A stretch of DNA of 64,000 nucleotides, from positions 1 to 64,000 of the forward strand of contig JAQSCO010000001.1 of NCBI GenBank assembly GCA_029945445.1, written 5' to 3'. This stretch comes from Lacunisphaera sp. (GTDB taxonomy: Bacteria > Verrucomicrobiota > Verrucomicrobiia > Opitutales > Opitutaceae). Below the pieces are notes generated by a model that was given only the letters and a program-made list of their open reading frames with translations, was not told the origin of the DNA and did not search any database. Positions 15,487-53,348 of the stretch are shown one piece after another (the stretch's first letter is position 1; the number at the start of each line of letters is the position of its first letter). The position numbers and the translations under genes were made by a program.

Positions 15487-17154
15487 TTACTCGTAGCGAT
15501 AGACCCGGCAGCGGCTGATTCCGGTGCCCAGGTCGTTCGCGAAAGGAATGCTTTCGGGCTTTCCGGGAAAATCCAGGAATCGCCACCAGTGGCCGCGGCC
15601 GGCTTCGTCGCCGTTTAGGCGCCGGCTGGGGACCCATTGACCGTCGATGAAGCGGCCCTCGTCCACTGCGAGGATGCCGGCGAGCGCCGGACCCGGGGCG
15701 AGCGGCCGGAAGCGCACGCGAAAGCCGAAGCCTGCGCCAAGAAATTCGTTTTCGCCGGTGTTGATGATGAGGCCGCCGGCGGTGGCGGGTTTCTGGCCGA
15801 AACCTTGGTCGAGCGTGATCTCGAGTTCGTAGCCGCCGAGCCGGCGGGTGACGGCCGGCTGTTTCTCGTCGAGCAGGAAGCCGGTCATCGCATCCTTGCC
15901 CTGGTGGGCAAGGATCTCGGGAGCGATCTGGCGCAACACCGCGTATGCGCGGCACAGCGGCTCGCTTTCGATGTCCACCACGGAATCGATTCCAAACGGC
16001 GAAACGCCGATCGCCTCGTGCTCGCCCACGGCATAGAAGGACCATCGCGCGGCCGTCTCCCCCTTGAGCATTTCCGGAATGAAGAGTTGATTGCCGGGGC
16101 GGGCGTAGCTGCGGCACCAGTGCTCGAAATTGAGCTGGTAAATGTCGGGGACAAATAGGTCGAGGTGCGACGCGGCTGCCATCCAGACGTCGAGGGTGTG
16201 GGGGATAGGGCCGCCACTTGGCCAGTCGCCCGGGCGCTGCTCGGGCTTATTGAGCCAGCCGTTGACAAACATGGGAAGGGGATACTCAGCCTTACCGGCG
16301 GTGGTGACGGAGTCGATGTAGGCGGCGTAGTGCCACGCCATGAAAAGTTCGTCGGTCTGTGGGCCGCTGCCGAATACCTCATCCCATGTGCCGCTGGTAT
16401 GGGCGCCATGTGCTTGCCAGAGCGCGGCGAGATCCTTGTCCAGTTCGGCGTGATGGAGGGAAAGATGCGCGAGCAGCGCCGGCGGCACGGGCCCGGCGTA
16501 GGCGAGATTGGCGGCGGCGCTCCGGTCGCGCGAGTCACCGAGCACGCCGACCTCATTCTCCACTTGCACCATGACGACGGTGTGTCGGTCGCCGTCGACC
16601 TCGCGCAGATGCCGCATGAGTGTAGCGAAGGCGCGTCGGTCGGCTTGGAGCGCCTCGTTAGAAAAGGCGGAAACGATCTCGACACTCTGACCGCTCTGAA
16701 CCTTCACGCGAGGAAAGCGCTGGAAATCGCGCTTCATCCACGCGGGAGCGTAGCTCGACATGCCGTTCTTCCATGTGCCGAACCAAAGCAGGATGAGCCG
16801 CAGGTCGCGCCGGCGCGCATCCGCGATCAGTCCGTCGACCAGATGGAAATCGAATTCACCTTCGCGGGGCTCGATCAGCTCCCAGGAGACCGCGGCGAGC
16901 ACCGTATTGAGCTGCAACTTTGCCAGCCGGTCCCACGCGGGAGCCATAAAGGTGAGATCCGACGAACTCGAGTTGTGCAGTTCGCCGCCAAGAACGAGGA
17001 ACGGCTTGTCCGCGACAATCAATTGGGTGGCGGTTCCCTGCTTGGCGAGGTGCGGAATGGCCGGCGCGGCTTGGCTGGCGACAGCGGCGAACGCGAGCCC
17101 GGTGAAGATGAGCAGGGTCAACTGTCGGAGAAAAGGGAGTAGTGTGGTTCGCAT
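15487..17154 (-). CDS. GH35-type beta-galactosidase with C-terminal DUF5597-like domain
   Basis: Exported clan GH-A beta-galactosidase, 555 aa. The ATG at 17154 is preferred to a TTG one codon earlier. Signal peptide spans ~1-30. The TIM barrel shows LVLGGELHNSSSS (54-66), WELIEPREGEFDF (91-103), MVQVENEVG with proton donor Glu201, and LFIPEMLKG with nucleophile Glu361. The C-terminal ~150 residues (from ~420) form the beta-rich DUF5597-type extension seen in Caulobacter-like GH35 enzymes. It leads a minus-strand series of hydrolases and is separated from the TonB receptor terminator by about 115 bp. It would release terminal beta-galactose from galactan oligomers. Confidence 0.87.
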   Translation of the reverse strand: MRTTLLPFLRQLTLLIFTGLAFAAVASQAAPAIPHLAKQGTATQLIVADKPFLVLGGELHNSSSSDLTFMAPAWDRLAKLQLNTVLAAVSWELIEPREGEFDFHLVDGLIADARRRDLRLILLWFGTWKNGMSSYAPAWMKRDFQRFPRVKVQSGQSVEIVSAFSNEALQADRRAFATLMRHLREVDGDRHTVVMVQVENEVGVLGDSRDRSAAANLAYAGPVPPALLAHLSLHHAELDKDLAALWQAHGAHTSGTWDEVFGSGPQTDELFMAWHYAAYIDSVTTAGKAEYPLPMFVNGWLNKPEQRPGDWPSGGPIPHTLDVWMAAASHLDLFVPDIYQLNFEHWCRSYARPGNQLFIPEMLKGETAARWSFYAVGEHEAIGVSPFGIDSVVDIESEPLCRAYAVLRQIAPEILAHQGKDAMTGFLLDEKQPAVTRRLGGYELEITLDQGFGQKPATAGGLIINTGENEFLGAGFGFRVRFRPLAPGPALAGILAVDEGRFIDGQWVPSRRLNGDEAGRGHWWRFLDFPGKPESIPFANDLGTGISRCRVYRYE

Positions 17155-21017: not shown

Positions 21018-21127
21018 CGAGGCGGGGTGTTTTCGCGAATCACGGTCAGCGTGTCAGCCCGCCACTGCGGGCAAGCCGATAACCGGACGCCACGCACGAG
21101 GTGACGGCGGGCTCGGTAACAGAAAAC

Positions 21128-38838: not shown

Positions 38839-38908
38839 TCCTGAATTGCGGGGCAAGGCGGTTTGTCCGCTTCTGCATTTGCTCGGCGGTGGACGGCGCC
38901 ATTTGGCG

Positions 38909-38930
38909 GCTGCAGCACCCCCGCTGCAGC
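38909..38930. repeat. Hairpin between cytochrome and mobile-element genes
   Basis: Two copies of the self-complementary octamer GCTGCAGC separated by ACCCCC. It lies between two convergent genes and may act as a bidirectional terminator, though no T-tract follows. The rest of 38839-38974 holds nothing recognisable. Confidence 0.35.
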
Positions 38931-38974
38931 TTGACGATCCGTGTCCACGGGGTCCGAAAAGCTCCCAGGCGCAC

Positions 38975-40477
38975 CTACTGGAATAGCTCGTTTCTTCGCG
39001 TAAACTCGGTGTTGGGCAATTTCAACCGGCACGGACGGCCGCAATTATTCGGATGCCTGACGATGGCCCGGCCTTCCGGCAGTGCCTGTAGTTCGGCCGG
39101 TTTGAACCACGGTATGTCTTGTAATTGCCAACCCGTGGTAGGTGCACCACCGGCGTAGCCACCACTGAATTTCTTTCCCTCCCGTCCGCCCATCTTTTCT
39201 GAAAGAATCTTTGCCCCCTGTTCGTCGGCCGCCCGAAAATGAATCTGTGTCCGCAGATTGGCCATGAAGACGTCCGCCTTGGTCTGCGTTTCAAAGGACG
39301 CGTAGAGCGACAGCGGAGTCTGAGTGGCCGAAATCAGGCAGACCCCGGCCTCGCGCAATTCATCGACTGAAGTGTGATCCGCAAAACCGTCCTCGGACAC
39401 CAAGGTCGTTTTCTGGCCCTCATCCAGAACCAGCACGATGACGTTTCGACGCCGCATCTCCTCCGAGACGAGATCGAATCTCCGGAACGCATGCAGGAAA
39501 AACAATTGTTTGCAAAGCAGGTTGAGGTATTTGCGCTCAAGTTGAAAGGTCTGGGGGACGGACAGGCAGATCAACCGGCCTTGATCCACCTCCTTTAGCG
39601 AGAAATTCGGCTCCTTGCTGCAAAAGACCTGGGCAATGTCAGGTGGGGTGTAAGGCCGCAAGTAGTTGGCCACTGTGGAAACCGTGCCGCCGCGCTGATC
39701 GACGGGTTGCTTCAGAAAGTCGCTAAAATACTGCACCTCAACTTTAGCGGCTTCGCTCCGCGGCTCATTTGCTTCTGCAAGTATTCCCAATTTATCGCGG
39801 AGCCACTTCATACGCAAGGTCGAGCATATGGCATCATAGGCCGCTTCCAGCGTCACAGGTTCCTGGAGCAGGTCTAAGGCCTGCATCGCATGGGTGATCA
39901 GGTCCCGGGCGGCTTCCTTGAAGAAGGTTTGCCCTCCCTTCTGTCCTGCGGCGGTCGCCGTATCGACGATCATCTTCGCATAGGAGCTCCACGGCACGGT
40001 TTTATCCTCCAGTAGATTGAGGCGCAGGGGAGGAATCCACTCTTTGACGGGAATATGCGCCGGCCGCACCCGAATCAGACGGAGATCGGATTCCTGGCCG
40101 AGTGCCTTGGCGATTTCCGCCATCGGCCGCCAAAGCGCCCCCTTCGAATCAACCGCCATGATGCCCGTCTGGCGCAGGGTGGAGCGGAGTCCGTGGATGA
40201 TCGGCACAACCGCACGGGCCGTCTTCCCTGTCCCTGTTGCTCCTGTGATAAAGAAATGACAGCAAACCTCGTCCCGGGTCCACGTCAGGCCCCACAGTCG
40301 GAGCACAGCCTGAGCGCGGGTCGACCACCACGGCCGCAGGGAGTGAAAGAGCAACCAGGCCCCGGTTGCCATACTCGCGAGGGCGAGCCCCGTGCCGGGT
40401 GTGCCTGGCACGGCAGACCTTGAGAAAAGCCCGATGCCGAAAGCCACAACCACCAGTATCCCAGCTTGGGCTTTCAC
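38975..40477 (-). CDS. Type IV coupling protein-like ATPase (TraD/TraG/VirD4-like)
   Basis: Inner-membrane ATPase, 500 aa, GTG start overlapping the preceding stop (GTGA). Two N-terminal membrane segments (~5-18 and ~30-46) precede the nucleotide-binding domain. Walker A is GATGTGKT (79-86) and Walker B is VLVLDEGQ (~366-373). The ISATQTPLSLYASF stretch and the RTQIHFRAADE segment resemble the TraM-recognition region of VirD4/TraD proteins. Such proteins hand the relaxase-DNA complex to a type IV secretion channel. It ends a four-gene operon whose members overlap by exactly 4 bp each. Confidence 0.85.
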   Translation of the reverse strand: MKAQAGILVVVAFGIGLFSRSAVPGTPGTGLALASMATGAWLLFHSLRPWWSTRAQAVLRLWGLTWTRDEVCCHFFITGATGTGKTARAVVPIIHGLRSTLRQTGIMAVDSKGALWRPMAEIAKALGQESDLRLIRVRPAHIPVKEWIPPLRLNLLEDKTVPWSSYAKMIVDTATAAGQKGGQTFFKEAARDLITHAMQALDLLQEPVTLEAAYDAICSTLRMKWLRDKLGILAEANEPRSEAAKVEVQYFSDFLKQPVDQRGGTVSTVANYLRPYTPPDIAQVFCSKEPNFSLKEVDQGRLICLSVPQTFQLERKYLNLLCKQLFFLHAFRRFDLVSEEMRRRNVIVLVLDEGQKTTLVSEDGFADHTSVDELREAGVCLISATQTPLSLYASFETQTKADVFMANLRTQIHFRAADEQGAKILSEKMGGREGKKFSGGYAGGAPTTGWQLQDIPWFKPAELQALPEGRAIVRHPNNCGRPCRLKLPNTEFTRRNELFQ

Positions 40478-40959
40478 GGTAACAGGAGGATCGCGACGGA
40501 GGAACCACCGAGCACAAACCCGACCAACAGGGCCGCCAGAGCCTGACGGTTTTGGGCTGCGGCCAGTGCCGTTTGCATGGCTTCCACCAGGTTGGCGGCG
40601 GCGCGAGCCGCGGCGTTGACCTCGGCAACGGCACGGGTGACCGGGCGTTGCAGATCCGCCTCCAACTGCCGGCCGAGGGCGGCCGGCTTTTGTTCCAGTG
40701 CGTCCTGCACCTGCTTCAGCTGTTCCTGCACGGCCAGCACGGTTTCAGACGAACCCACAACCGTGGCGATGCGGCTATCCACCGCCGCTTTCAGGTCCAT
40801 CAGTGCCGAGCGCAACGAGTCCTCTCCTTTCTGGATCCGGTGCCAGTGCCACGCGACCAACAGGTAGACGGGGTCGTTGGGCTGGAGGCGGTATTCTGAG
40901 GCCAGCCAATGGAGATCTTCCGGCAGAGTCTCCACGTTCAGAAGCTCTTCCGGCTTCAT
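40474..40959 (-). CDS. Small tail-anchored helical protein of the mobilisation operon
   Basis: Unrecognised 161-aa protein. Residues ~60-135 are Ala/Gln/Leu-rich and probably form a coiled coil (VQEQLKQVQDALEQK); the C-terminus is one hydrophobic helix (ALAALLVGFVLGGSSVAILLLP region, ~140-161). This suggests a tail-anchored membrane protein. Its 4-bp overlaps with the ParA-like gene and the coupling-protein gene imply coupled translation and possibly a shared complex. Confidence 0.75.
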   Translation of the reverse strand: MKPEELLNVETLPEDLHWLASEYRLQPNDPVYLLVAWHWHRIQKGEDSLRSALMDLKAAVDSRIATVVGSSETVLAVQEQLKQVQDALEQKPAALGRQLEADLQRPVTRAVAEVNAAARAAANLVEAMQTALAAAQNRQALAALLVGFVLGGSSVAILLLP

Positions 40960-41651
40960 GGGAGCAGGACCTCGTTGGCCTTGCGGAACTCAGCTGCCAT
41001 CTGGTGATGGTAACGGGCACACCTTGACCGATCGAGGAGGTGCAGCTGTTCAGCGGAGCGACCGCGACCCACCGTGAGATCGGCCAACTGCAGGCGATTG
41101 CGGGTCACTTCTGCGAGGCAAGGCACATCCACTTCGACGGCGCCCAGATCAAGTAGCCGGCGCCGGGTGTTGCTCTGTCCGAAAAGCCGCAGTAGGGTGC
41201 CGTCTCGCAGGTTCCGCGCAACTACCCAGCGCACTTTGTCTTCATAGCGGTCCACCAGATCGGCGATCTGCGAAATCGCATCCTTGTCGTCGTTGGCGAC
41301 GACGAGGAACACCAGGGCACAACCGAGTTCGGTTTGGAGTTCGGGTAACCTGACCTCGTCGAGATAGTGCAGGATCTTTTCCCCGCCGGAGGCGCGGTTG
41401 TCCGCTAAAACGACATCCGCGACCTCTAGCGCCAGGAGAAGGCGGTCTAGAACAGCCAGTTTGCCCACATCCACGTCAGTATCGATGAATTCGGCTTCGG
41501 GCACAAAGCGATTGAATGTCGAATTGGCATGATCCAAGTCGAACGCTTTTAGCGTCACGCCTTGATCACAAAGATAGTCGTAGAGGAGGGTGGCCACAAA
41601 GCTCTTGCCGATGCCGCCTTTGTCCTGCGGGAATAAGATTAGCTTTTTCAT
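40956..41651 (-). CDS. ParA/MipZ-like P-loop ATPase
   Basis: 231-aa ATPase of the SIMIBI class with the deviant Walker A KGGIGKS (10-16). VADVVLADNRASGG occupies the switch II/Walker B position and lacks the usual DxxP-type sequence of classic ParA, so it is a divergent member. Similar proteins occur in transfer operons, where they position or recruit the relaxosome rather than partition a plasmid. No parB gene or parS array is visible. It overlaps both neighbours by 4 bp. Confidence 0.82.
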   Translation of the reverse strand: MKKLILFPQDKGGIGKSFVATLLYDYLCDQGVTLKAFDLDHANSTFNRFVPEAEFIDTDVDVGKLAVLDRLLLALEVADVVLADNRASGGEKILHYLDEVRLPELQTELGCALVFLVVANDDKDAISQIADLVDRYEDKVRWVVARNLRDGTLLRLFGQSNTRRRLLDLGAVEVDVPCLAEVTRNRLQLADLTVGRGRSAEQLHLLDRSRCARYHHQMAAEFRKANEVLLP

Positions 41652-42007
41652 AAGTCTTTGCGGGCAATCTTTGGACCGCGCTGCCCGTTATAGGTTGAGG
41701 TCCTTGTGGAATCGGCGGAACGAGTGCTCGCAGATTCTGTTGGCTGTTTCGCGCCGCCCACGGGGCGTCGGGCTGATTCGATTTCCGTCTTGGTGAATTG
41801 CCTTCGGCAAAAGATGCCCACGGCCGCCGGCGATACCCGGAGGCCATGCCGAGCCAGCGTCGCGGAAATCTGCTCATAGCTCATGAACTTCGCCCGCTGG
41901 AGCAGCAGCACATCCCGGAAGGGTGCCAGCAGGCCCCGGGTGTGGGCCGCCGGGTCATACCGACGGGCATCCTCCAGTAATTGCGTGTGCAGTTCGTTTG
42001 GGTCCAC
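41648..42007 (-). CDS. Small DNA-binding protein (TraK/MobC-like accessory)
   Basis: 119-aa protein, GTG start, leading the transfer operon. Residues ~24-70 form a helix-turn-helix-like segment (LLAPFRDVLLL, MSYEQISATLARHGLRVSPAAVG) that is common in small plasmid transfer-region proteins. The C-terminal third is Ser/Thr/Arg-rich and probably disordered. It is next to the presumed oriT and could bind the repeats there, regulating both divergent operons or helping assemble the relaxosome. The assignment is by fold and place only. Confidence 0.65.
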   Translation of the reverse strand: MDPNELHTQLLEDARRYDPAAHTRGLLAPFRDVLLLQRAKFMSYEQISATLARHGLRVSPAAVGIFCRRQFTKTEIESARRPVGGAKQPTESASTRSADSTRTSTYNGQRGPKIARKDL

Positions 42008-42024
42008 GCGGCAAACCTAGCATA

Positions 42025-42039
42025 AGTATGCCAGTATGC
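42025..42039 (+). repeat. AGTATGCCAGTATGC repeat, left copy
   Basis: 15-mer, 18 bp upstream of the transfer-operon start; 14 of 15 bases match the copy at 42293-42307 in the same orientation. It overlaps a GCATA-AG-TATGC inverted repeat (42020-42031). Candidate operator. Confidence 0.55.
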
Positions 42040-42292
42040 AAGTAACAGGCCGGATCGGCCCGGTTTAAGCAGGTAGCGGATGAGGAGCGATAAAGTAGTG
42101 GCGGAGTAGTGGGTTTGGGCCGGCCAGCCTAACGGAGTTAGGGGTTCTGCGTCCTCTATACTATATATTAAGGATAGTTCTTCCCTAAGCTTGATGAGGT
42201 TCATGGATGATCACGGTTTCTTTAGTAATAATATTTGGCGGATGCGTAGGTTGAGGTGGTAAATTGACGGATTTTAGCTTTCGATTGAATAT

Positions 42293-42307
42293 AGTATGCC
42301 AATATGC
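42293..42307 (+). repeat. AGTATGCCAATATGC repeat, right copy
   Basis: Matches the left copy at 42025-42039 and lies 12 bp upstream of the relaxase ATG. It is part of a larger inverted repeat at 42296-42321. Confidence 0.55.
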
Positions 42308-42321
42308 TACCGTATTGGCAT
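42296..42321. repeat. Inverted repeat at the relaxase start (ATGCCAATA...TATTGGCAT)
   Basis: Perfect 9-bp arms (42296-42304 and 42313-42321) separated by 8 bp. The right arm includes the first bases of the preferred start codon of the relaxase, so a bound protein would block both transcription and initiation. Confidence 0.55.
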
Positions 42322-45022
42322 GGTCAGATTTGATAAACCGTGCATGAGCCTGAAGGGTGCTGTGGGATATTTCCGCGAGCACCTGAAGGTCGGCGATTAT
42401 CTCGTGGAGGAAGGCAAAGCGGAAATGACTTGGTATGGCCAGGGGGCCCAGAGACTCGGTCTGACCGGGGTTTGTGATTTGGAGGATTTTAGCCGCCTTT
42501 GCCTCGGCCAGCATCCCCAGACCGGCGCCAAGCTGGGGGTCCGGGACAAGGGGGCGCACCGCCGCCTGTGCTATTTCGGCCAGATTTCCGCGCCCAAGGA
42601 CGTTTCCATCGCCTATTTGGTGGGTGGGGATGCCCGCATCGGCGGGTGGTGGGAGGAGGCGATCAGTGATACCCTCAAGGAAATGGAGGCTGTAACCTCC
42701 ACCCGGGTTCGCCGAGGTGGGGCCGATGAGGACCGGGTTACCGGCAACATGGTGGCGAGTGTGGTGACCCACGATGCCAGCCGGGCACTCGACCCGCAGC
42801 TCCATACCCATGTCTGCATAATGAATCTCACCTTTGATCCGGTGGAGCAACGTTGGAAAGGCGTGCAGCCGTCACTGTTTTACCGCCATAACAGTTTCTT
42901 CCGGGAGGTCTGCCATGCCAAGCTGGCGGCGAGGATGCAGGAGGCGGGATACGAGTTGGAGTCCTCGCGCAAGCTGGGTTTCAACATCAAGGGCTTTCCT
43001 CCCGAGCTGAGGGACAAATTCAGCAAGCGTCGGACGGAAATCCTTCGCCGGGCTGCGGAGGAAGGAGCCACTTCGCAGGCGGCTCTGCAGGCGATTGTTG
43101 TGAAGACCCGGGCGCGCAAGACCAAGGCAACGGTCGCCGAGCTGCGGGCGGGATGGATTGAACAGGCCGGCGAGGGCTTGGCGGCGGTGCGTGCCACCAT
43201 CGCCAGTGCCGATGGCGTGCGCCGAGCCCCCCCGCCGTTGACGCCGGCAGAGGCCTTGGCCTCGGCCGAGGCACACCTTTTCGAGCGCCGGTCGGTCGTG
43301 GACGGACGATTCCTGTTGCGCGAAGCCTTGATTGCCGGTCGGGGAGGGGTCTCCCTCGATCAAATTCGGGCGGAAGTAGCCACCCGGCTCGCGCAAGGCG
43401 AATTGCTGCACATCGAGGGCGAACTGGCTTCACGCGAGACCCTCGCCGCCGAGAACGAATTCGTCGGCTGGGCGAAGGAGCAGTGTGATGCCTGCGGGGA
43501 GTTGGGCCGGGCCGGTGACCTTGCCGGGCTGGGCCGTGACCAGCAACAGGCCGTGGTCGAACTGCTCGCTTCCCCATCCCGCATCACGATCCTGCAAGGC
43601 GACGCGGGCACGGGAAAAACGACCTGCCTGCGGTCAGTGGTCGCCGGCATCGAATCAGCCGGTGGGCGGGTGTTCGGCTGTGCGCCTTCGGCCGGTGCGG
43701 CCGACGTCCTCCGACGAGAACTGACCCCGGAGGCAAACACCCTTCAGCAGTTGCTCGTGAATCAGTCGCTGCAACTTGCGACCTTCGGCCGGGTCCTGAT
43801 CGTCGATGAGGCAGGTTTGATATCTGTCCGCCAGATGCGGGACCTTTGCCGGCTGGCCTACGCCAACAACAACCGGCTGCTGCTGGTCGGCGATACCAAG
43901 CAGCACACGTCGGTCGAGGCCGGTGACGCCCTGCGTTGCCTGGAGGAATACGCGCAGGTGCCGGTCGCACACCTGAGCCAAATCCGCCGGCAACAGGACC
44001 CGGCCTATCGCGAGGCTGTCGGCCTGCTCGCGCGGGGCGACGCCTTCGGGGCGTTCAATGCCTTTACCCGGCTGGGAGCCGTGCAGGAAATCGCCGATGA
44101 GCAGCGGCTATTCAAGGCGGCGGCGGATGATTACGTGCAGACGATTTCCTCCGGGAAGAGCTGCCTGGCGATTTCTCCGGTGTGGGCGGAGATTCGCACT
44201 TTCACAACTGAGGTGCGCACACAGTTGAAAGCGACCGGGCGGATTTCCGGAGAGGAGAAAAACTACGCCACGGTGTTCTCCCTCCAATGGACCCGGGAGG
44301 AATGCCGTCGGGTCGAGCAATACGAGGCGGGTGATGCGCTCACCTTCCATCGGGCGACGGAGGGTTTCGCCAAACATGAGACCGTGGTGGTGGCGAGACG
44401 GGAGGAGGAGCGCTTGGTGGTGCGCGGCGACGATGGACGGGACCGGTCCATCGATCCCAAGAAGATCGCCGGATTCGATGTGGGCGTCGTCCGGGAAATC
44501 CCCGTCGCCATCGGCGACCGGCTGCTGATTCGGGCCAACCTCAAGGAGGCGCACCTCAAGAATGGTGACACCCCGGAGGTAGCGGGCTTTGCCGCCGATG
44601 GTGGCATCACGCTGAAGGACGGCCGGGTGGTGCCGCCCAACTTCCGGCAATTTTCGCACGGCTACGCCACCACCTCCCATTCCTCGCAGGGCAAGACCGT
44701 GGACCGGGGGCTCCTGCTCATGGCTGAAGCGGGGATCGCCGCCGGCAATTTGAAGCAGGCGTACGTGAGCAACTCCCGGTTCCGGTTCAGCCAGATGATC
44801 TACACCACAGACCGGAAGGCAGCGCAGGAGGCGATGATGCGCCCGGCGGATCGCAAGCTGGCGACCGAACTGGTCGATCCCGATCCCTTGCACCGGCGCG
44901 TGTTCCTCGCCCGGGCCTATCGCCTGGGCCAGCCGATCGGGGCGGAAGTCCTGCACCGGGGCTGGTGGGGCGGGACACCGGAGGCGGCGGTGGCCGCGGC
45001 TGCACCCAGGCAGATGCCATGA
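42320..45022 (+). CDS. MobF-family relaxase-helicase (TrwC/TraI-like)
   Basis: 900-aa protein that would nick oriT, bind the 5' end covalently and unwind the strand for transfer. The start MVRFDKPC at 42320 is preferred to an ATG 24 bp upstream because relaxases need a short N-terminus before the catalytic tyrosine (Tyr17 in GAVGYFREHL). The three-histidine metal site is His151, His162 and His164 (VVTHDASR, then DPQLHTHVC). A RecD-like helicase domain follows with Walker A GDAGTGKTT (~430), Walker B VLIVDEAG (~490) and a C-terminal YATTSHSSQGKT motif. The next gene overlaps its stop by 4 bp (ATGA). Confidence 0.92.
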   Translation: MVRFDKPCMSLKGAVGYFREHLKVGDYLVEEGKAEMTWYGQGAQRLGLTGVCDLEDFSRLCLGQHPQTGAKLGVRDKGAHRRLCYFGQISAPKDVSIAYLVGGDARIGGWWEEAISDTLKEMEAVTSTRVRRGGADEDRVTGNMVASVVTHDASRALDPQLHTHVCIMNLTFDPVEQRWKGVQPSLFYRHNSFFREVCHAKLAARMQEAGYELESSRKLGFNIKGFPPELRDKFSKRRTEILRRAAEEGATSQAALQAIVVKTRARKTKATVAELRAGWIEQAGEGLAAVRATIASADGVRRAPPPLTPAEALASAEAHLFERRSVVDGRFLLREALIAGRGGVSLDQIRAEVATRLAQGELLHIEGELASRETLAAENEFVGWAKEQCDACGELGRAGDLAGLGRDQQQAVVELLASPSRITILQGDAGTGKTTCLRSVVAGIESAGGRVFGCAPSAGAADVLRRELTPEANTLQQLLVNQSLQLATFGRVLIVDEAGLISVRQMRDLCRLAYANNNRLLLVGDTKQHTSVEAGDALRCLEEYAQVPVAHLSQIRRQQDPAYREAVGLLARGDAFGAFNAFTRLGAVQEIADEQRLFKAAADDYVQTISSGKSCLAISPVWAEIRTFTTEVRTQLKATGRISGEEKNYATVFSLQWTREECRRVEQYEAGDALTFHRATEGFAKHETVVVARREEERLVVRGDDGRDRSIDPKKIAGFDVGVVREIPVAIGDRLLIRANLKEAHLKNGDTPEVAGFAADGGITLKDGRVVPPNFRQFSHGYATTSHSSQGKTVDRGLLLMAEAGIAAGNLKQAYVSNSRFRFSQMIYTTDRKAAQEAMMRPADRKLATELVDPDPLHRRVFLARAYRLGQPIGAEVLHRGWWGGTPEAAVAAAAPRQMP

Positions 45023-45363
45023 GTAATTTCCCGAGCCGCGAATTGATCCCGCCCCCGCCGCCGCTGCCGTGGGGTCGCCTGGTGGACGAGGGCAAGTTAG
45101 CCGCTGTGATCCGGTTTGTCACCCCCCAGCAAACAGTCTCCTGGCCCATGCACGGGCTGACTCGTTGGATCTGGAGCCCGGGCGAGTCAGAATCGCTGGT
45201 AGTTCACGCCGCCGGTGCGACCATCACCGTGACCGGCCGGAAACTCGAAATCGTGCGCGATGCGCTGGACGCCGGTCGGCTGCAGCAGGTCCAGGTCATG
45301 ACCGAACGAGCAGCAGCGGCGGCGGGGCCGTTCATCCGGGGAATCACGATTGCCACTCCATGA
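45019..45363 (+). CDS. Hypothetical protein of the relaxase operon
   Basis: 114-aa protein starting inside the relaxase stop (ATGA overlap), indicating coupled translation. After a proline-rich start (PPPPPLPWG) it has mixed alpha/beta sequence without a motif I recognise. No membrane segment or signal peptide. Confidence 0.7.
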   Translation: MSNFPSRELIPPPPPLPWGRLVDEGKLAAVIRFVTPQQTVSWPMHGLTRWIWSPGESESLVVHAAGATITVTGRKLEIVRDALDAGRLQQVQVMTERAAAAAGPFIRGITIATP

Positions 45364-45366
45364 ACG

Positions 45367-48300
45367 ATGCCCCTAAAACCCAGCAACGACCCATACCAGC
45401 TTGATCTCTTCGAGCACGCCAGAAATGACCGCACTACTCGCATACGCCCGGATGGCAGAGAACCATTGGCGCCAGCATTGCCCCCGGATGGTGCGGCAAC
45501 TGCAGGAGGACGGACGACTGGAGTCGGCCCTCCTGGAGGCGCAGGAGCGGACGCTGGACGAAATGGAATCACTGATACGGGATTTCCGCCAGCAGGGGCT
45601 GACTTCGCCGCAGGCGCACGATCAGGCTTGGGAGCTGGTGCGCGAGAAATACCTTCTGATCCCGGCGGAGAGGGAGTAGTTGCACCGCCGCGGAATCAGG
45701 CGTGCTACCGGATCACGGACGCCGACCGGCTGGGCGAGGGCTCAGCGAAGGAGAAGTTTCGCGGCAACGTGGCCGCCATCGAGCTGCTCCGCGCACTGGA
45801 GGAGCAACGCCGTCTCCCGACTGACGAAGAAAAAGGTATCCTCGTGCGTTACGTGGGCTGGGGCGGCATCCCGCAGGCTTTTGCCGAACCGAAGGATGCC
45901 CCAAAATGGAGCGCCGAGCAGAAATTGCTCAAGCAGTTGCTCCAGCCGCGGGAATACCGCCACGCCCGGGCCACGGTGCTCAACGCCCACTACACCCCGC
46001 CCGTTGTCATCAAGGCCATGTATGCCGCCATGGAGCGCCTGGGTTTCAGGGGCGGGCAGGTGCTGGAGCCGGCCTGCGGAACAGGGCATTTCTTCGGACT
46101 CATGCCGGAGGAGATGCGCTCCCGGTCCCGTCTCACCGGGATCGAGATCGATCCCCTGACGGCCCGATTCGCCGCCATGCTTTATCCCGATGCCGAGATT
46201 CGCGCCCAGCCTTTCGAGGAGGCGACGCTGCCGACCAATCAATTCGACGTCGCCATCTCCAACGTCCCGTTCGGCGACTACAGTCCCTTTGATCCGCGCC
46301 ATAATCCCTGCAAGTTCCGCATTCACGACTATTTTTTCGGTGCGGCGCTTGCGCGGGTCCGGCCGGGCGGGCTGGTCATGTTCGTGACCTCGGCCGGCAC
46401 GCTCGACAAGGGCAACACCTTCGTCCGCGAAATGCTCGCGCAGGATGCCAATCTCGTCGGCGCGATCCGTCTCCCGAACACCACCTTCAAGAAGAACGCC
46501 AACACCGAGGTGACGACCGACATCGTGATCTTGCAACGGCGCGAGCGGGGCACGCCCGCGCAAGGCCCGGTTTGGCGCCAGAGCCTGCCGTGGCCGGGCA
46601 GCGGGGAGATTGATGTGAACGAATACTATCACGCGAACCCGCAGATGCTGCTCGGGCGGATGCAACGGTCGACCGGTGCGCCGCACCTGCGGGGCAAGCA
46701 GGAGATGGCGAGCGATGATCGCGAGCTGGGCGCAGCTTTGGCCGCAGCGGTGGCTGTATTGCCAGCTGGAGTCTATCAGCCACTCACGCCGGCCGAGGAA
46801 GCAAGCATTCGGCAGGTGCTGCTCGCGCCGCCGGAGGTTAAGCCGAACGCCTACGCCCTCACTGAACTGGGCGAGGTGGCCCGGCGGGAGGGCGACGATC
46901 TGGTCATCCTTGAAAACCTGCCTTTGCCGCTGCTCCGGCGGTTGCGCGGCCTGATCCGGCTCCGTGAGTCGGCGCGATTCTGCCTGCGGGTCCAAGTGGA
47001 AGACCGGGCGGAGGAGGAACTGGCCAATGCCCGGTTGCGGCTCAATCAGGACTACGACCAGTTTGCCGGCCAATTTGGACCGGTCTCGCAGTCGGCGAAC
47101 GTGCGGGCCTTTGCGGGTGATCCGGACTTACCGCTTCTGCTCTCACTGGAAAACTTTGATGATGATGCGGGCACGGCGACCAAGACGGCGATCTTCACTG
47201 AGCGCACTATTCAGCGGCGACGGCCGGTCGAGCGGGTGGAAACCGCGGGAGAGGCACTGGTCGTCACGCTCAGTGAAAAGGGGCGCGTGGATCTCGACCA
47301 CATGGCCCAACTGCTGGGCCGCCCCGAAAAGGAGTTCCTGTCGGAGTTGGCCGGCCTCATCTTCCGCAACCCGGTCACCAGTTGGCGATGGGAAGCCGAA
47401 GACGAATACCTGTCCGGCAATGTGCGCGAAAAACTGGCGGCGGCCGAAAAGGCGGCCAGGGTCAATCCGATCTACCGGGCCAACGTCGAAGCCCTGCGCG
47501 CTGTCCAGCCGGCCGATCTGAAGGCGACGGAAATCGACGCCCGGCTTGGGGCGGTGTGGATCCCGGCGGATGACGTGGCGGCCTTCGCCCGCGAACTGCT
47601 GCACCTTGCCAAACACGATACGCAAGGTCTTCGCGTCGCCCATGTCCCGCAACTGGGGCTATGGTCGGTGGACATTGGTTATTACGCCAAGCGGAGCGTC
47701 GCCAACCTGAGCGAGTGGGGCACCGAGCGTGCTCCTGCCCACGAGTTGATCGCCGATGCGCTCAATCTCCGCACCCCCACGGTCCACGATCTCGATGCCA
47801 AGAAAAACCCGGTCATCAATCCGGCCGCAACCGAAGGTGCGCGGGAGAAACAGCAGAAGATCAAGGACCGGTTCGCGACCTGGATCTGGGAGGACGACAC
47901 GCGGCGGGCGCGGCTGGTGGCGCAATACAACCGGGAGTTCAATCACCTGCGGCTGCGGACCTTCAACGGCGATCATCTCGCCCTGCCCGGCGCCAGTCCG
48001 GTCATCAGCCTGCGTCCCCACCAGAAAGCGGCCGTCTGGCGGATTCTGCAAAGCCCCAATACCCTTTTGGCTCATGTGGTGGGAGCCGGGAAGACCTATA
48101 CCATGGTGGCGGCGGCGATGGAGATGAAGCGGCTGCGCCTCGCCCGGAAACCGCTGTTCGTGGTGCCGAATCACATGCTGGGGCAGTTTTCGTCGGAACT
48201 GCTGACACTGTATCCCGGGGCCAATATTCTCGTCGCCGGCAAGGCCGACTTTGAAAGCAGCCGGCGCCGGCAGTTGATGGGGCGGATTGCGACCGGCAAT

Positions 48301-50514
48301 TGGGATGCCGTCATCGTCACCCACTCGGGCTTCGAGCGGCTGCCGATTTCGCAGAAGGCGCAGAAGGACTTCATTGAGCGGCAAATCACGGAGCTGGAGG
48401 TTTGTATCCGGGAACAGCGGGAAGATGATTCCGACACCCGCATAGTGAAGGAGCTGGAGCGTGCAAAAAAACGGCTGGATGCCCGGTTGAAGTCGCTGGC
48501 GGCCGAGCACCGCAAGGACAACACGTTCACGTTCGAGGAATTGGGGGTGGACCGCCTGTTTGTCGATGAAGCGCAGGCCTTCAAGAATCTCTTCTATGTG
48601 ACCAAGATGACGCGCGTGGCCGGCCTGCCGCAGACGGCCTCAGAGCGGGCCTTCGACATGCTGCTCAAGGTGCAGCATATCCAAAAGATCAATGACGGTG
48701 GCGGGGTGGTATTCGCCACCGGAACGCCCGTGACCAACACCATGGCGGAGCTGTTCACCATGCAGCGGTTTCTGCAGATGGACGGGTTGCGCAAACAAAA
48801 CCTCCAACACTTCGATTCTTGGGCCGCCACGTTCGGTGAACCGGTCACGGCCATGGAATTGGCTCCGGACGGCGCGGGCTACCGGCTCAATACCCGGTTT
48901 GCCCGCTTCGTGAATGTGCCGGAATTGATGCAGCAGTTCCGCCAGATCGCCGATATCCAGACGGCCGAAATGCTCAAACTCCCGGTGCCGGCGCTCGCTG
49001 GGGGCAAGGCCAGCGTCATGCGGGCTCCGGCGACTCCGGAACTCAAGGCCATCGTCACGGCGCTGGCCAGGCGCGCGGAAAAATTGAAGACCAGTCGCGT
49101 TGATCCCCGGGAGGACAACATGCTCAAAATCACGGGCGAGGGCCGGAAGGCAGCCCTCGACCTGCGGCTGGTTCGCGGCCGTTCCGTCGATCACCCTGAC
49201 AGCAAGGTCAACCAGGCGGTCCGGGAAATCCTGGCCATCTGGCAGGAAACCAAGGCGAATCGGCTGACCCAACTGGTGTTTTGCGACCTTTCGACCCCGA
49301 AGATCGATGGCCGTGGTTTTTCCGTCTACGATGACATCAAGGTCAAGCTCGTTGCCGCCAAAGTGCCGGCCGCCGAAATCGCCTTCATCCAGGAGCACGA
49401 CAGCGATGCGGCGAAAATGGCGCTGTTTCGCGACGTGCGGGCGGGCAAAGTACGGATTCTGCTCGGTTCCACGCAGAAGATGGGTGCGGGCATGAACGTG
49501 CAATCCAAGCTGGTGGCCCTGCATCACCTCGATGCACCTTGGCGGCCGGCCGACATTGAACAACGCGAAGGGCGCATCCTGCGGCAGGGCAATGCCAACG
49601 CGACCGTGAAGGTGCTCCGCTACGTGACCGAGGGCAGCTTCGACGCCTACATGTGGCAGACCCTTGAGACCAAGGCCAAGTTCATCGGCCAGATCATGAC
49701 GGGTCAGTCCACGGCCCGTAAAGTGGAAGACCTGGACACGCCGGCGCTGACCTATGCCGAGGTCAAGGCCATCGCATCCGGCAACCCCCTCGTCATCGAA
49801 AAAGCCAAGGTGGATGCCGAAGTCATGCGGCTGTCCCGCTTGCGGGCCGAGCACGCCGAGGCACAGTTCACCGCGCGCAGCCGGGTGCGGATGCTGGAGC
49901 AGGATATACCGCGGATCGAAAAACAGGTGGCCGGGATGAAGCAGGACTTGGCGGCCCGGCAGGATACCAAGGGCGAACTTTTCCGCATGGCTGTAAACGG
50001 ACAGGCTTTCACCGAGCGCCCCAAGGCCGGGGAGGCATTGATTCAGATGGTCGACAAGCACTACCGGGCCCCGGCTCCGGTCACCGTCGGTGAATTGGCC
50101 GGCCTTCGCATCGAATTCCGTTCGTCGCTTCCGGATACATTGACGCTATGCGGTCAGATGGCCTATCCGGCCAAGGTCTCGCCGAGCTCCGCCGGAATCA
50201 TCCGCTCCCTGGAGCATGCAGTGGCCTGCATCGAGGACCGGATTGCTGCCCGGGAGGCCGATCTCAATCAGACGACCAAAAATCACAAGGAGCTTTCAGC
50301 TCTGGTCGGGCAACCCTTCGAGCACACGGTCCGCCTCGAGCAGCTGCTTTCCAGACAGAACGAACTCGTGGAATCCCTTGATCTGACCAAGAACCAGGCA
50401 TCCAGTGAACTATCCGGCGACGTTATCGAGGTCGATTCCGTGGGGCCGGAGCAGGCTGAGGCAGTGGCCGAAGCTCTCGAAACCGATCCGACGTCAACCC
50501 GAGTTGCCATTTAG
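45367..50514 (+). CDS. Giant N6-adenine DNA methyltransferase-helicase fusion
   Basis: 1,715-aa protein of the type found in large plasmids and phages. A clamp-binding-like pentapeptide QLDLF is at residues 11-15. Residues ~20-105 are a Gly/Ala/Pro-rich linker read over a second gene in another frame. Conserved sequence begins at ACYRITDADRLGEG (~112). The methyltransferase has SAM motif LEPACGTGHF (~233-242) and catalytic ISNVPFGD (NVPF 299-302, a variant of NPPF/Y). The helicase has GAGKT (~905), LFVDEAQAFKN (~1062-1072) and motif VI near GRILRQGN (~1404). A coiled-coil tail follows. Possible roles are protection of transferred DNA from restriction, or regulation; no restriction enzyme is paired with it. 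Confidence 0.88.
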   Translation: MPLKPSNDPYQLDLFEHARNDRTTRIRPDGREPLAPALPPDGAATAGGRTTGVGPPGGAGADAGRNGITDTGFPPAGADFAAGARSGLGAGAREIPSDPGGEGVVAPPRNQACYRITDADRLGEGSAKEKFRGNVAAIELLRALEEQRRLPTDEEKGILVRYVGWGGIPQAFAEPKDAPKWSAEQKLLKQLLQPREYRHARATVLNAHYTPPVVIKAMYAAMERLGFRGGQVLEPACGTGHFFGLMPEEMRSRSRLTGIEIDPLTARFAAMLYPDAEIRAQPFEEATLPTNQFDVAISNVPFGDYSPFDPRHNPCKFRIHDYFFGAALARVRPGGLVMFVTSAGTLDKGNTFVREMLAQDANLVGAIRLPNTTFKKNANTEVTTDIVILQRRERGTPAQGPVWRQSLPWPGSGEIDVNEYYHANPQMLLGRMQRSTGAPHLRGKQEMASDDRELGAALAAAVAVLPAGVYQPLTPAEEASIRQVLLAPPEVKPNAYALTELGEVARREGDDLVILENLPLPLLRRLRGLIRLRESARFCLRVQVEDRAEEELANARLRLNQDYDQFAGQFGPVSQSANVRAFAGDPDLPLLLSLENFDDDAGTATKTAIFTERTIQRRRPVERVETAGEALVVTLSEKGRVDLDHMAQLLGRPEKEFLSELAGLIFRNPVTSWRWEAEDEYLSGNVREKLAAAEKAARVNPIYRANVEALRAVQPADLKATEIDARLGAVWIPADDVAAFARELLHLAKHDTQGLRVAHVPQLGLWSVDIGYYAKRSVANLSEWGTERAPAHELIADALNLRTPTVHDLDAKKNPVINPAATEGAREKQQKIKDRFATWIWEDDTRRARLVAQYNREFNHLRLRTFNGDHLALPGASPVISLRPHQKAAVWRILQSPNTLLAHVVGAGKTYTMVAAAMEMKRLRLARKPLFVVPNHMLGQFSSELLTLYPGANILVAGKADFESSRRRQLMGRIATGNWDAVIVTHSGFERLPISQKAQKDFIERQITELEVCIREQREDDSDTRIVKELERAKKRLDARLKSLAAEHRKDNTFTFEELGVDRLFVDEAQAFKNLFYVTKMTRVAGLPQTASERAFDMLLKVQHIQKINDGGGVVFATGTPVTNTMAELFTMQRFLQMDGLRKQNLQHFDSWAATFGEPVTAMELAPDGAGYRLNTRFARFVNVPELMQQFRQIADIQTAEMLKLPVPALAGGKASVMRAPATPELKAIVTALARRAEKLKTSRVDPREDNMLKITGEGRKAALDLRLVRGRSVDHPDSKVNQAVREILAIWQETKANRLTQLVFCDLSTPKIDGRGFSVYDDIKVKLVAAKVPAAEIAFIQEHDSDAAKMALFRDVRAGKVRILLGSTQKMGAGMNVQSKLVALHHLDAPWRPADIEQREGRILRQGNANATVKVLRYVTEGSFDAYMWQTLETKAKFIGQIMTGQSTARKVEDLDTPALTYAEVKAIASGNPLVIEKAKVDAEVMRLSRLRAEHAEAQFTARSRVRMLEQDIPRIEKQVAGMKQDLAARQDTKGELFRMAVNGQAFTERPKAGEALIQMVDKHYRAPAPVTVGELAGLRIEFRSSLPDTLTLCGQMAYPAKVSPSSAGIIRSLEHAVACIEDRIAAREADLNQTTKNHKELSALVGQPFEHTVRLEQLLSRQNELVESLDLTKNQASSELSGDVIEVDSVGPEQAEAVAEALETDPTSTRVAI
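45425..45679 (+). CDS. Small helical protein nested in the methyltransferase-helicase gene
   Basis: 84-aa protein (MTALLAYARMAENHW... to ...LIPAERE) in a different frame within the low-complexity 5' part of the large gene. Its codons have the strong G/C third-position bias of real genes here, and its sequence is well-mixed and amphipathic, resembling small hypothetical proteins found beside such methyltransferases. The overlapping reading of the large protein is compositionally odd over exactly this stretch. Function unknown. The start could also be a non-ATG codon 24 bp upstream. Confidence 0.65.
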   Translation: MTALLAYARMAENHWRQHCPRMVRQLQEDGRLESALLEAQERTLDEMESLIRDFRQQGLTSPQAHDQAWELVREKYLLIPAERE

Positions 50515-50522
50515 GAGGGACG

Positions 50523-50900
50523 ATGACGTTGCTGACTTTTGCGGATCAGGCCGGTCTCTCTGATAAGGAGCGAATCCGCCGGATTGGCGAATTACTCGCC
50601 ACAGCGATCATTCGGTATCGTCGACGAGAACGAACTGCAGAAGGCCCAATGCCAAAATCCGCCCCCTCCGCTGTTCTCGACCCAATCGGATTGGTCAGTG
50701 ATGAAATCGAAAAACGTCTCGTTCGCTATCTGGCGAGTGCCGGCGCGGCGACTCCGTGTGACTTGAGTGCGGGGCTGGGTTTCTCACGTGCTACGGTGAC
50801 ACGAAAACTCGCTCGCCTGCGGCAAGCGGGCATAGTGACAGTTTCCGGCCGGACAAAAGGCGCAACCTACAAGCTGAAGACCGACTTCTCCCAAAACTAA
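50523..50900 (+). CDS. Winged-helix (MarR-like) transcriptional regulator
   Basis: 125-aa protein with a strong ribosome site (AGGAGG, 50512-50517) before ATG 50523. Residues ~60-120 form a winged helix: VRYLASAGAATPCDLSAGL, recognition helix SRATVTRKLARLRQAG, and wing VTVSGRTKGATYKLK. The first 50 residues are unassigned. It lies 8 bp after the methyltransferase-helicase and converges with the recombinase, with overlapping stop codons. It probably controls functions of the element; the repeats at 42.0-42.3 kb are one possible target. Confidence 0.8.
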   Translation: MTLLTFADQAGLSDKERIRRIGELLATAIIRYRRRERTAEGPMPKSAPSAVLDPIGLVSDEIEKRLVRYLASAGAATPCDLSAGLGFSRATVTRKLARLRQAGIVTVSGRTKGATYKLKTDFSQN

Positions 50901-52993
50901 TCCTGGCTCCGCTGCATCTCTGCGAATCGCTTGAGCTGTTGTCGCTGGGGCAGGTCTGCGAGCGCCTTCATGCGGTTCAGGCTGAACTGCCGCAATTCCT
51001 GCTCGGTCTTCAGCGTGATCAGGAATGTCTGAATATCCGGAGCCAACTGGAGGAGCTTGAGGTGATGCGTCAGAGTGCCAGGAGCAACCCCAGCGTTCTT
51101 TGCTAGGACAGCTTGGGTCAGGCTCGGTTTGGCCGCCAACTGGCGTTGCCATTCAAGGGCGCGTTGGAGGGGATGACTGGGGGCCCCCTGGATTACTTTG
51201 GCCACCGGCTCTTGTGTGGGCGAGATGGCCCGCCGGAAAGGCGCCAGGATTGCGATTGGGTCAGGTGCATTGGTGCGAGCGATGGAGCATCTCATTTCCA
51301 GGCACAGCAGCCTGACCGGCGGCAGCGGCCCGCGGGTCTTCGGACGTGCTTGCACAACAACTTTTTGCTCCATACCGGCAATGAGCCGGCTCATGTGAAA
51401 CCGGATGTGTAGCTCGAAATTGCGGCTGGTGGCCGCGGCCTTCCCGCCCGTGGCGCCGCTCGGGAGGATTTCAATCTTCGCGATGAATAGCGTCACCAGG
51501 CTGCGCTGCTCCTCATGAGAGAGCGTCGGGAGCACTTCACTGAATTTCGTCAATGACTCGCGAAGACGGGTCGCATCGAGCTGATCTTGGTCGCTCGCGG
51601 AAAGGTCCTGGCGCAAGCGCTCGCACTCGACCAACAGGCGCTGTTTTTCCGTCCTGAGCGACACGGCGCGTTCGCGCAATTCGTCCACCATGGCATCCAT
51701 TCCCCCAACCGCCACGACCTCCGCGCAATTGCGAAGTTGCTGGGTGATGTCGGCCAGGGAATCTTCGGCCGCGGCGAGAGCCGTCCGAAGCGGTTTGCGG
51801 TTCGTCTTGGCCCGCAGCCGGGAACTTTCTTCGGCCGCTTGCAGGATTTCCGGATGCTGGCTGCATTCCCCGATGAATCCGATGATGGCGGCTTCCAGCG
51901 CAGCCGCGGAAACATGGCGCACCGGACAGATCGTGACGGCACCCGGTTGGCGGGTATGGCCGCAGGTGTAATACCTGTAGGGTCTCCCGTCGCCGTCCTT
52001 CTTGCCGCTGGCATTCGGAATCATCGCTCGACGGCAACAGCCACAATGCAGCACCCCCTTGAGCAGGTGGAAATGCTTGTCTCGGGTATTGAGCAGGCAA
52101 CGAGCAGGCTGAAGACTCTGTTTGATTGCGGCGTTGGCCCGCTCCCAAAGATCCGGTGACACGAGGCCCTCGTGCAAGCCGGGGTATTGCTGGCCTTGCA
52201 TCCTGACTCGGCCGGCATAAATCGAATTCCTGATCAACTTTCGGAGTCCATCACTGCGAAACGAAAGGCCGCCCACCTCTTCTTTGGCTCCGTCCCGGCG
52301 AACAAAAACCCGGAGTTTCGTCCGGATACTATCGGCCGCAAGGCCGTTGGCCACCTTGGTGAGGGGAACAAGGCTGGCGGCCTCCGCGAAGATCCGGCGC
52401 ACGACGACAGCCTCCTCCGGGTGCTGATGCAGGGTTTGGGTGGTCTTGTCGTAGGTATAACCATACGGAACCAACCCGCAGCTCCAGTAACCTCTTTTGG
52501 CCTGCTCCAGCAACTTGGTGCGCACTTTCTCGGCCGTGTTGAGCCGTTCGTATTCCGCCACGCTCACCAGTAGGTTGTTCTTCAATCGCCCCGATGGTGT
52601 TTCGTCGTTCAAATCTTCCGTTGTGCTGACCAGTCGGCAATTGTGCTTCTGGAGAAACGACCGAAAGGGCGACCATTCATCCGTGCTCCGCAGCACTCGC
52701 TCGAGCTTGAAGATCAGAGCTACCTTTACATCGCCGGCTTCAATCCTGCGTTTCAGCCCCTGAATGCCTGGACGATTCATGGTGCCGCCCGAATAGGCCG
52801 GGTCTGAGAAAGACGCGACCTCGTGCCAGCCTTCCGCTGCGCGCTTGCTAATGTATTCGCGGCAGACGGCGGCCTGACTCTCGCAGGAATCAAAACGCCC
52901 ACCCACTTGGTTGACCGTAGAAACGCGAGTATAGATAGCGACGGGAACCGACCCGGACGTGACTGTGTTGGCCTCACGGCGAAGCGTATGCAT
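50897..52993 (-). CDS. Large serine recombinase (integrase/excisionase of the element)
   Basis: 698-aa site-specific recombinase. The ATG at 52993 has a near-perfect ribosome site AAGGAGG 5 bp upstream, which excludes longer readings. The catalytic domain opens VAIYTRVSTVNQ with nucleophile Ser25. Next come the recombinase domain (GYWSCGLVPYGY), a zinc ribbon (HCGCCRRAM, then YYTCGH and TICPVRH), and a coiled coil (~390-490). Residues ~610-690 form an extra C-terminal helix-turn-helix (LTQAVLAKNAGVAPGTLTHHLKLL) recalling ParB/KorB-type domains. It should integrate and excise the element. Confidence 0.95.
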   Translation of the reverse strand: MHTLRREANTVTSGSVPVAIYTRVSTVNQVGGRFDSCESQAAVCREYISKRAAEGWHEVASFSDPAYSGGTMNRPGIQGLKRRIEAGDVKVALIFKLERVLRSTDEWSPFRSFLQKHNCRLVSTTEDLNDETPSGRLKNNLLVSVAEYERLNTAEKVRTKLLEQAKRGYWSCGLVPYGYTYDKTTQTLHQHPEEAVVVRRIFAEAASLVPLTKVANGLAADSIRTKLRVFVRRDGAKEEVGGLSFRSDGLRKLIRNSIYAGRVRMQGQQYPGLHEGLVSPDLWERANAAIKQSLQPARCLLNTRDKHFHLLKGVLHCGCCRRAMIPNASGKKDGDGRPYRYYTCGHTRQPGAVTICPVRHVSAAALEAAIIGFIGECSQHPEILQAAEESSRLRAKTNRKPLRTALAAAEDSLADITQQLRNCAEVVAVGGMDAMVDELRERAVSLRTEKQRLLVECERLRQDLSASDQDQLDATRLRESLTKFSEVLPTLSHEEQRSLVTLFIAKIEILPSGATGGKAAATSRNFELHIRFHMSRLIAGMEQKVVVQARPKTRGPLPPVRLLCLEMRCSIARTNAPDPIAILAPFRRAISPTQEPVAKVIQGAPSHPLQRALEWQRQLAAKPSLTQAVLAKNAGVAPGTLTHHLKLLQLAPDIQTFLITLKTEQELRQFSLNRMKALADLPQRQQLKRFAEMQRSQD

Positions 52994-52998
52994 TGGAA

Positions 52999-53005
52999 CC
53001 TCCTT
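52999..53005 (-). promoter_or_regulatory. Ribosome binding site of the serine recombinase
   Basis: AAGGAGG on the minus strand, 5 bp before the ATG at 52993. It decides the start codon. Confidence 0.85.
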
Positions 53006-53095
53006 GATTGTTGGAGGGCGATCCAATTGGCCTCAGCCCGGTTAGAATTTCACTAGGGAAACTCTGTCGAATTCCGCCACAAACTCAAGCGATGG

Positions 53096-53187
53096 AATTT
53101 AACGGTTGGTCCGATTTTACACGGAATCGAAGCCTTTTCATCACAAAGCCTAATGGAAGTCCGAACTCTGGCCAAAACCGTTAAATT
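53096..53187. repeat. 12-bp inverted repeat beyond the recombinase
   Basis: AATTTAACGGTT (53096-53107) and AACCGTTAAATT (53176-53187) are perfect inverted copies about 70 bp apart, between the recombinase start and the tRNA. They could be recombinase arm sites, an operator, or the element end. Nothing else is seen in 52994-53271. Confidence 0.5.
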
Positions 53188-53271
53188 TCCCGATTTCTGT
53201 TTCGGCCAGCCGACCAGTGACTTACCCAGAAAATTTAATGACCCCCGAAGGGGTTCTGGTTTTGATGTCGA

Positions 53272-53348
53272 TGGTCGGGACGGAGAGATTCGAACTCTCG
53301 ACCTCTTGCTCCCGAAGCAAGCGCTCTACCAGGCTAAGCTACGTCCCG
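53272..53348 (-). tRNA. tRNA-Pro(CGG)
   Basis: 77-nt gene with acceptor stem CGGGACG/CGTCCCG, D-arm AGCTTAGCCTGGTAGAGCG, anticodon stem CTTGC/GCAAG with loop TTCGGGA (anticodon CGG, proline codon CCG), T-loop TTCGAAT, and encoded 3' ACCA. It is the first chromosomal gene beyond the recombinase. Confidence 0.97.

Follow-up and report, generated by a model that had tools for sequence, protein, structure and literature searches.

The window analysed here is the whole stretch of 64,000 nucleotides from Lacunisphaera sp. (contig JAQSCO010000001.1, assembly GCA_029945445.1), in which positions 38975-53272 carry a compact block of genes for site-specific recombination and DNA mobilisation, which stops at a tRNA gene and is probably the terminal part of a much larger integrative and conjugative element (ICE). 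An earlier note on this DNA, made from the letters alone, had proposed an undescribed integrative mobilisable element (IME) of about 14 kb with a serine recombinase, a MobF relaxase-helicase, a coupling protein, a ParA/MipZ-like ATPase, a tail-anchored protein and a methyltransferase-helicase, and with no secretion channel. Searches with Pfam, NCBIfam and PHROGs, complemented by ARAGORN and Rfam for tRNA genes, recovered all of these genes, intact, where they had been placed and in a compact layout; proteins of 119 and 132 aa, a winged-helix regulator, a tRNA-Pro gene and an intergene resembling an origin of transfer (oriT) were absent from that first reading. The window contig is hereafter referred to as C1, and C10, C16, C17, C24, C33, C46 and C52 are other contigs of the same genome.

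The type IV coupling protein (T4CP; 38975-40477, minus strand; 500 aa) is of the VirD4/TraG/TrwB type (PF10412 1e-10, PF02534 2e-7), carries the Walker A motif GATGTGKT and, by eye, two hydrophobic N-terminal segments, and is 58-70% identical to its homologues in close syntenic relatives. It is followed by a small membrane protein with a C-terminal anchor (40474-40959, minus), conserved in position and weakly StbC-like, by an ATPase of the ParA/MipZ fold (40956-41651, minus; PF09140 6e-5) with the Walker A motif KGGIGKS, of the kind of TraL of IncP and StbB of R388, and by the 119-aa protein (41648-42007, minus), which adjoins the putative oriT and is conserved in relatives, with identities of 46-73% in most close ones and as low as 32% in distant ones. 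When these proteins are set against stbABC and traKLM, the TraL match scores 1e-11 (PRK13886), the StbC match is weak (NCBIfam, 9e-4) and the 119-aa protein has no family match in Pfam, PHROGs or NCBIfam, StbA included; its location would fit the StbA/TraK-type oriT-binding proteins. TraK/L/M of IncP is what we take to be the counterpart of the StbA/B/C-like set.

The MobF relaxase-helicase of the TrwC/TraI type (42296-45022, plus strand; 908 aa; PF08751 3e-73, PF13604 3e-49) scores 198 bits in NCBIfam against a cut-off of 100, can be aligned to TraI/TrwC structures and possesses the TrwC domain, the N-terminal tyrosines, the HTH triad region, an SF1 helicase and the motif GDAGTGKT. Downstream lie the 132-aa protein (44965-45363, plus), conserved in the module at 34-53% identity and without a family match in the Pfam search, and a 1715-aa DarB-like antirestriction protein (45367-50514, plus; PF02384, PF00176, PF00271), which joins an N6-adenine methyltransferase to an SNF2 helicase as in the DarB family and matches phrog_10089 at 1708 bits. 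The winged-helix regulator (50523-50900, plus; PF01022 2e-7), relatives of which adjoin serine recombinases on C33 and C52, is followed by a large serine recombinase, or integrase (50897-53026, minus), in which the resolvase domain, the recombinase domain and the zinc ribbon of large serine integrases are all found, together with a ParB-type HTH at the C-terminus and an intact Y-T-R-V-S motif (PF00239 1e-24, PF07508 3e-11, PF13408 8e-12, PF17762 8e-4; phrog_95 integrase 8e-94). No internal stop occurs in the genes for the T4CP, the ParA-like ATPase, MobF, the DarB-like protein and the recombinase, and their motifs are intact. The block holds the site-specific integrase, the relaxase and the coupling protein looked for in an ICE.

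The intergene at 42007-42296 contains a candidate oriT (42076-42156), composed of the iterons GTAGTGGCG/GAGTAGTGG at 42095-42112 and the inverted repeat CCTAACGGAGTTAGG at 42128-42142, after which comes GGTTCTGCGTCC. The inverted repeat matches the search pattern in 18 of the 20 relatives, with GGGGTGGCG next to it in about 16; most of the relatives carry GGGGTGGCGTGTcC as the motif behind the hairpin, and the family consensus is GGGGTGGCGTGTCC / GGGGTGGCGTGT.

Relatives were sought in 21 genomes of the genus and 252 of the family, and the synteny of the block was mapped with tblastn over 42 loci. Syntenic relatives, for which the earlier note had suggested looking, do exist: the block is kept together in more than 20 Opitutaceae loci and, being conserved as a unit in so many, is far from a chance assembly. 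The shared order runs T4CP, membrane protein, ParA-like ATPase and 119-aa protein / relaxase, 132-aa protein and DarB-like protein, with the winged-helix regulator and the recombinase as optional members, and the flanks are variable; the 14 kb are the conserved backbone, a DNA-transfer module widespread in Opitutaceae. Copies of the relaxase at 60-66% identity are present in many of the family genomes, often two or three per genome, and their hosts in the named collection are mainly Opitutaceae; no relative was found in viral contigs. The best match is just 66% identical, and this copy is thus without a close published twin. Three further MobF genes are present in the source genome. Two MobF elements of class B, with 54%-identical serine recombinases, lie on C33 (L189/L198) and C52 (L190); they end at tRNA-Ser-like 3' ends, and the contigs break there too.

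The right junction was placed at 53271-53272, at the 3' end of the intact target gene tRNA-Pro(CGG) (53272-53348, minus; ARAGORN and Rfam RF00005), the tRNA being the sole Rfam match. In most relatives of the genus, homology to the tRNA region begins at 53270-53272. G015 carries the recombinase, 85% identical in DNA, at the same tRNA-Pro. In other loci the recombinase end abuts tRNA-Asn (L050, L061, L064 and G221A) or, by eye, tRNA-Ser-like 3' ends (C33 and C52, with their 54%-identical recombinases). Between the tRNA and the recombinase is a terminal array of three copies of a motif of ~12 bp in alternating orientation (53096-53107, 53176-53187 and ~53229-53242), separated by a near-constant spacing of about 80-87 and 50-57 bp. 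The same geometry is seen beside the tRNA in L050, L061, L064, L039 and G221A and, by eye, on C33 and C52, and the motif itself varies (GAAATTTAACGG in the window, GTGTTAAAATG in L061, GATCGGTCAAAA in G221A and GTGTTAATCAC in L050, L064 and L039). In L064 additional genes (hipBA-like, by eye) separate the array from the recombinase; the array is therefore part of the element terminus rather than a recombinase promoter, and would serve for binding of the recombinase or of an accessory protein at the attachment (att) site.

Some further features of such tRNA sites may be recorded. The motif GTGTTAATCACTTGG of L050, L064 and L039 closely resembles the anticodon arm of tRNA-Asn, as if a fourth copy lay inside the tRNA, a likeness that does not hold for the tRNA-Pro copy. 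In L039 a 46-bp block of the tRNA-Asn 3' half (21052-21097) lies by the serine-recombinase end and is followed by an apparent tyrosine-integrase open reading frame (ORF); inspection by eye suggests the scar of another element in that tRNA, possibly one with a tyrosine integrase, rather than an att site of the present family. In L147 32 bp of the tRNA-Pro 3' end are duplicated ~2 kb away (14051-14082 versus 16084-16160), a pattern that recurs at G008:C72; a small insert of another kind uses the same tRNA.

Comparison with insert-free relatives, which the earlier note had proposed for defining the att sites, bears out the right limit at the tRNA-Pro 3' end and does not confirm a left limit at 14 kb. 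No displaced tRNA-Pro end or att-like repeat was found near 38838-38975. At the empty site of G001 only 30-40 bp separate the end of a native gene from the 3' end of tRNA-Pro, and at that of G011 a dipeptide epimerase gene begins ~55 bp from tRNA-Pro. The native flank of the source genome is found at C46:1-12806, syntenic with G001, G009 and G017, and ends in AAATGGTCGGGgCGaG, a tRNA-Pro 3' fragment of ~10-14 bp, behind which foreign DNA with ShosT/ShosA, DrmA, DrmB and a methyltransferase begins. Since at least 13.7 kb on C46 and 53.3 kb in the window separate the native flank from tRNA-Pro, the insertion measures at least 67 kb, and a size of about 14 kb is not supported. Contig ends were linked by 55-base overlaps, which join C10 to C46, making the two neighbours in the assembly graph, and C16 to C17; C46 and C24 only share an end, and C1 has no such link. 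Two other routes to the left end failed: G015, taken as a test of the left junction, has no tRNA fragment there, and similarity between the islands A and B of G221 stops within a TonB receptor gene and not at an att site. The ShosTA and DISARM-type genes of C46 (C46:13150-25039; L195:3150-15039) start about 325 bp past the tRNA-Pro fragment.

Queries with the channel clusters of C16 and G009 matched nothing in the window, for which the claimed absence of a secretion channel is upheld; for the genome it is not, a channel being encoded on C16. The classical VirB4 family PF03135 has no match in the 21 genus genomes and matches in 2 of the 252 family genomes. A host devoid of any channel, as this absence had at first suggested, was discarded when PF19044 exposed a divergent VirB4, with weak matches to ORFs of ~870-970 aa, many within about 5-35 kb of module-type relaxases and one on C16. 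Encoded within C16:27-44 kb are an AAA protein, VirB2/3-like proteins, VirB4/TraC (TIGR02746 2e-24), VirB5-like, VirB6-like (351 aa) and VirB8/9-like proteins, VirB10/TrbI (PF03743 4e-18), GspF/PilC (4e-39), a secretin, GspE/PilB and a prepilin, the last three characterised on the G009 homologues (secretin 5e-62, GspE 9e-131), which are 73-76% identical to those of C16. The pair of a VirB4/TraC-type ATPase and VirB10/TrbI, by which a type IV secretion system (T4SS) in the broad sense is recognised, is present on C16 and not in the window. The C16 VirB4 is 66-70% identical to that of seven loci in class-A genomes, linked to the closest relatives of the module, and 75% to that of G221B, as against 40% to one VirB4 linked to a different MobF class (class B). 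In L039 the recombinase, DarB-like protein, relaxase, T4CP and VirB4 all lie inside 22 kb, and in G221B a single contig carries both module and channel, at a distance of ~60 kb and with intervening cargo. Screening of 72,556 plasmids for VirB4 relatives yielded two, both from Opitutaceae (CP007054.1 and NZ_CP109797.1) and both with the same hybrid set.

The junction at a tRNA 3' end, the empty sites, the syntenic relatives and the oriT-like intergene agree with the earlier note in that this is integrative mobile DNA with a relaxase and a coupling protein. On the reading we favour, a large ICE, belonging to a family specific to Opitutaceae, probably has its recombination and mobilisation end in the block 38975-53272. 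Sequence shows the gene set and its conservation, the junction at the tRNA, the native flank at least 67 kb away, the channel on C16 and the contigs on which relatives carry module and channel together; all of the activities, and the placing of C16 on the same physical element, are inferred. Mating-pair genes lying elsewhere, which the earlier note had named as incompatible with its proposal, are probably what the C16 locus provides. Several observations weigh against the favoured reading. No assembly link between C1 and C16 was found (no shared contig ends), and since the contig with the left att junction is not connected to C1 either, independent elements might be stacked at one tRNA. Classical VirB4 is missing throughout the 21 genomes of the genus and in nearly the whole family, the labels VirB6-, VirB8- and VirB9-like follow gene order without a family match, and the window motif behind the hairpin, GGGGTTCTGCGTCC, deviates from the consensus GGGGTGGCGTGTCC, possibly reflecting a changed specificity or decay. 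Moreover, the 38.8 kb past the window T4CP and the ~77 kb past that of G221A are devoid of channel genes.

This last point would also suit an IME, in which a backbone of ~14 kb at the tRNA 3' end borrows the C16 channel of a separate conjugative element and the sugar genes to the left are stacked or resident. Other relatives are likewise without a nearby channel (L071/L072 for about 18 kb past the T4CP and L050 for 6.6 kb), multi-copy genomes such as G009 have three modules and a scored P-loop_TraG match beside only one, and the three additional MobF genes of the source genome point the same way. However, related modules have a channel on their own contig, including L039 with its recombinase and DarB-like gene, and the displaced tRNA fragment adjoins the native flank instead of the stretch 38838-38975, where neither it nor an att-like repeat occurs; we regard the IME as the main rival but as rather unlikely. 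That several elements have gathered at tRNA-Pro and left a decayed or trapped block that no longer moves itself is improbable: the diverged oriT motif, the presence of DISARM/ShosTA genes on the opposite side of the island and sequences resembling insertion sequences at the contig ends could be so explained, but the large ORFs are all intact with conserved motifs, and the recombinase and its end are 85% identical in DNA at the same site in G015. A conserved, non-mobile chromosomal region, to which conservation throughout the family might point, can hardly be maintained when flanks vary by genome, native sites without the block exist, different tRNA genes are occupied and up to three copies occur per genome.

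If the block is the end of a large ICE, the large serine recombinase would excise and reinsert the element at a tRNA 3' end, here that of tRNA-Pro, leaving the tRNA intact. MobF would nick the oriT-like intergene and unwind the strand, assisted by the StbA/B/C-like (TraK/L/M-like) proteins, and the T4CP would pass the relaxase-DNA complex to its cognate channel on C16, predicted to be a hybrid of a VirB4/VirB10-type T4SS and a type IV pilus (GspE, GspF, secretin, prepilin). The DarB-like protein may shield the incoming DNA from restriction. Cargo would be the fucosidase/sulfatase cluster, possibly together with the ShosTA/DISARM genes of C46.

Among known systems, the oriT region of R388 with stbABC and trwC (PMC3098194) is similar in that a ParA-like ATPase and small proteins are transcribed away from an oriT-like intergene, with MobF on its other side and the T4CP within the block. 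The window block differs in being chromosomal, with a serine integrase and a DarB-like gene, in having the T4CP inside the stb-like operon and in its weak StbC and missing StbA matches. In R388 deletion of stbB abolished conjugation and that of stbA raised transfer (PMC3098194). Transfer of the ICE PAPI-1 of P. aeruginosa requires an element-borne type IVb pilus (PMC5297154). The likeness lies in a conjugative island with its own type IV pilus; that of PAPI-1 is R64-like, whereas the Opitutaceae channel combines MshL/GspE/GspF-type parts with a divergent set of VirB4/VirB10 proteins. The integrase differs as well, that of PAPI-1 being of the tyrosine type. A gut survey described five serine-integrase IME clusters in Verrucomicrobia (PMC6907783), which share a serine integrase and a relaxase without an adjoining channel, whereas the present family of elements has a T4CP and, in relatives, a channel on the same contig. 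The plasmids CP007054.1 (TAV5) and NZ_CP109797.1 (T. mucosus) both have VirB4-like, secretin and GspE homologues and a T4CP, to which the latter adds VirB8/9/10, GspF and MobF and the former a DarB-like protein and a prepilin; they differ in being circular plasmids with VirB4 just 28-29% identical, and PLSDB types them as mobilizable and non-mobilizable. The 1715-aa protein resembles DarB of phage P1 in its family match and differs in that its carrier is a conjugative-type element and its antirestriction role is predicted.

Conjugation in Verrucomicrobiota is almost undocumented; limited literature searches gave no paper dedicated to it and no description of this element, in line with its having been called undescribed. 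It may tentatively be suggested that ICEs and plasmids of Opitutaceae share an unclassified mating-pair system with a divergent VirB4/VirB10 and a dedicated type IV pilus, invisible to PF03135, served by serine integrases that use tRNA 3' ends through the three-site alternating array and able to carry polysaccharide-degradation and defence cargo. If true, a family-wide ICE lineage evades the VirB4 model and the mobile DNA of the group is mis-scored as mobilisable or non-mobilisable, as both plasmids are, and a concrete path exists for pathways for fucose and sulfated sugars and phage-defence genes to spread among Opitutaceae.

The remainder of the window to the left of the block (1-38838) encodes sulfatases, two alpha-L-fucosidases and sugar genes (Pfam/NCBIfam), with GH2/GH42-type enzymes, galactonate dehydratase, KDG kinase, a TonB-type receptor and a multihaem TPR protein, and has the appearance of a utilisation locus for sugars of the sulfated-fucose type. 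It is flanked by tRNA-Pro on one side and, on C46, by the displaced native flank on the other, and may be cargo of the same island, which is favoured over a stacked neighbour. Fucoidan genes of Verrucomicrobiota isolates from Massachusetts are reported to lie on megaplasmids (PMC8857213). The islands A (L067/L156/L191/L202) and B (L068/L157/L192/L204) of G221 have ~50 kb in common at 93-99% identity, with genes for an RHS-like protein, TonB receptors, an ABC transporter and CobW/ThrRS/HisI-like proteins; within the ~108 kb read, the channel is present in B only.

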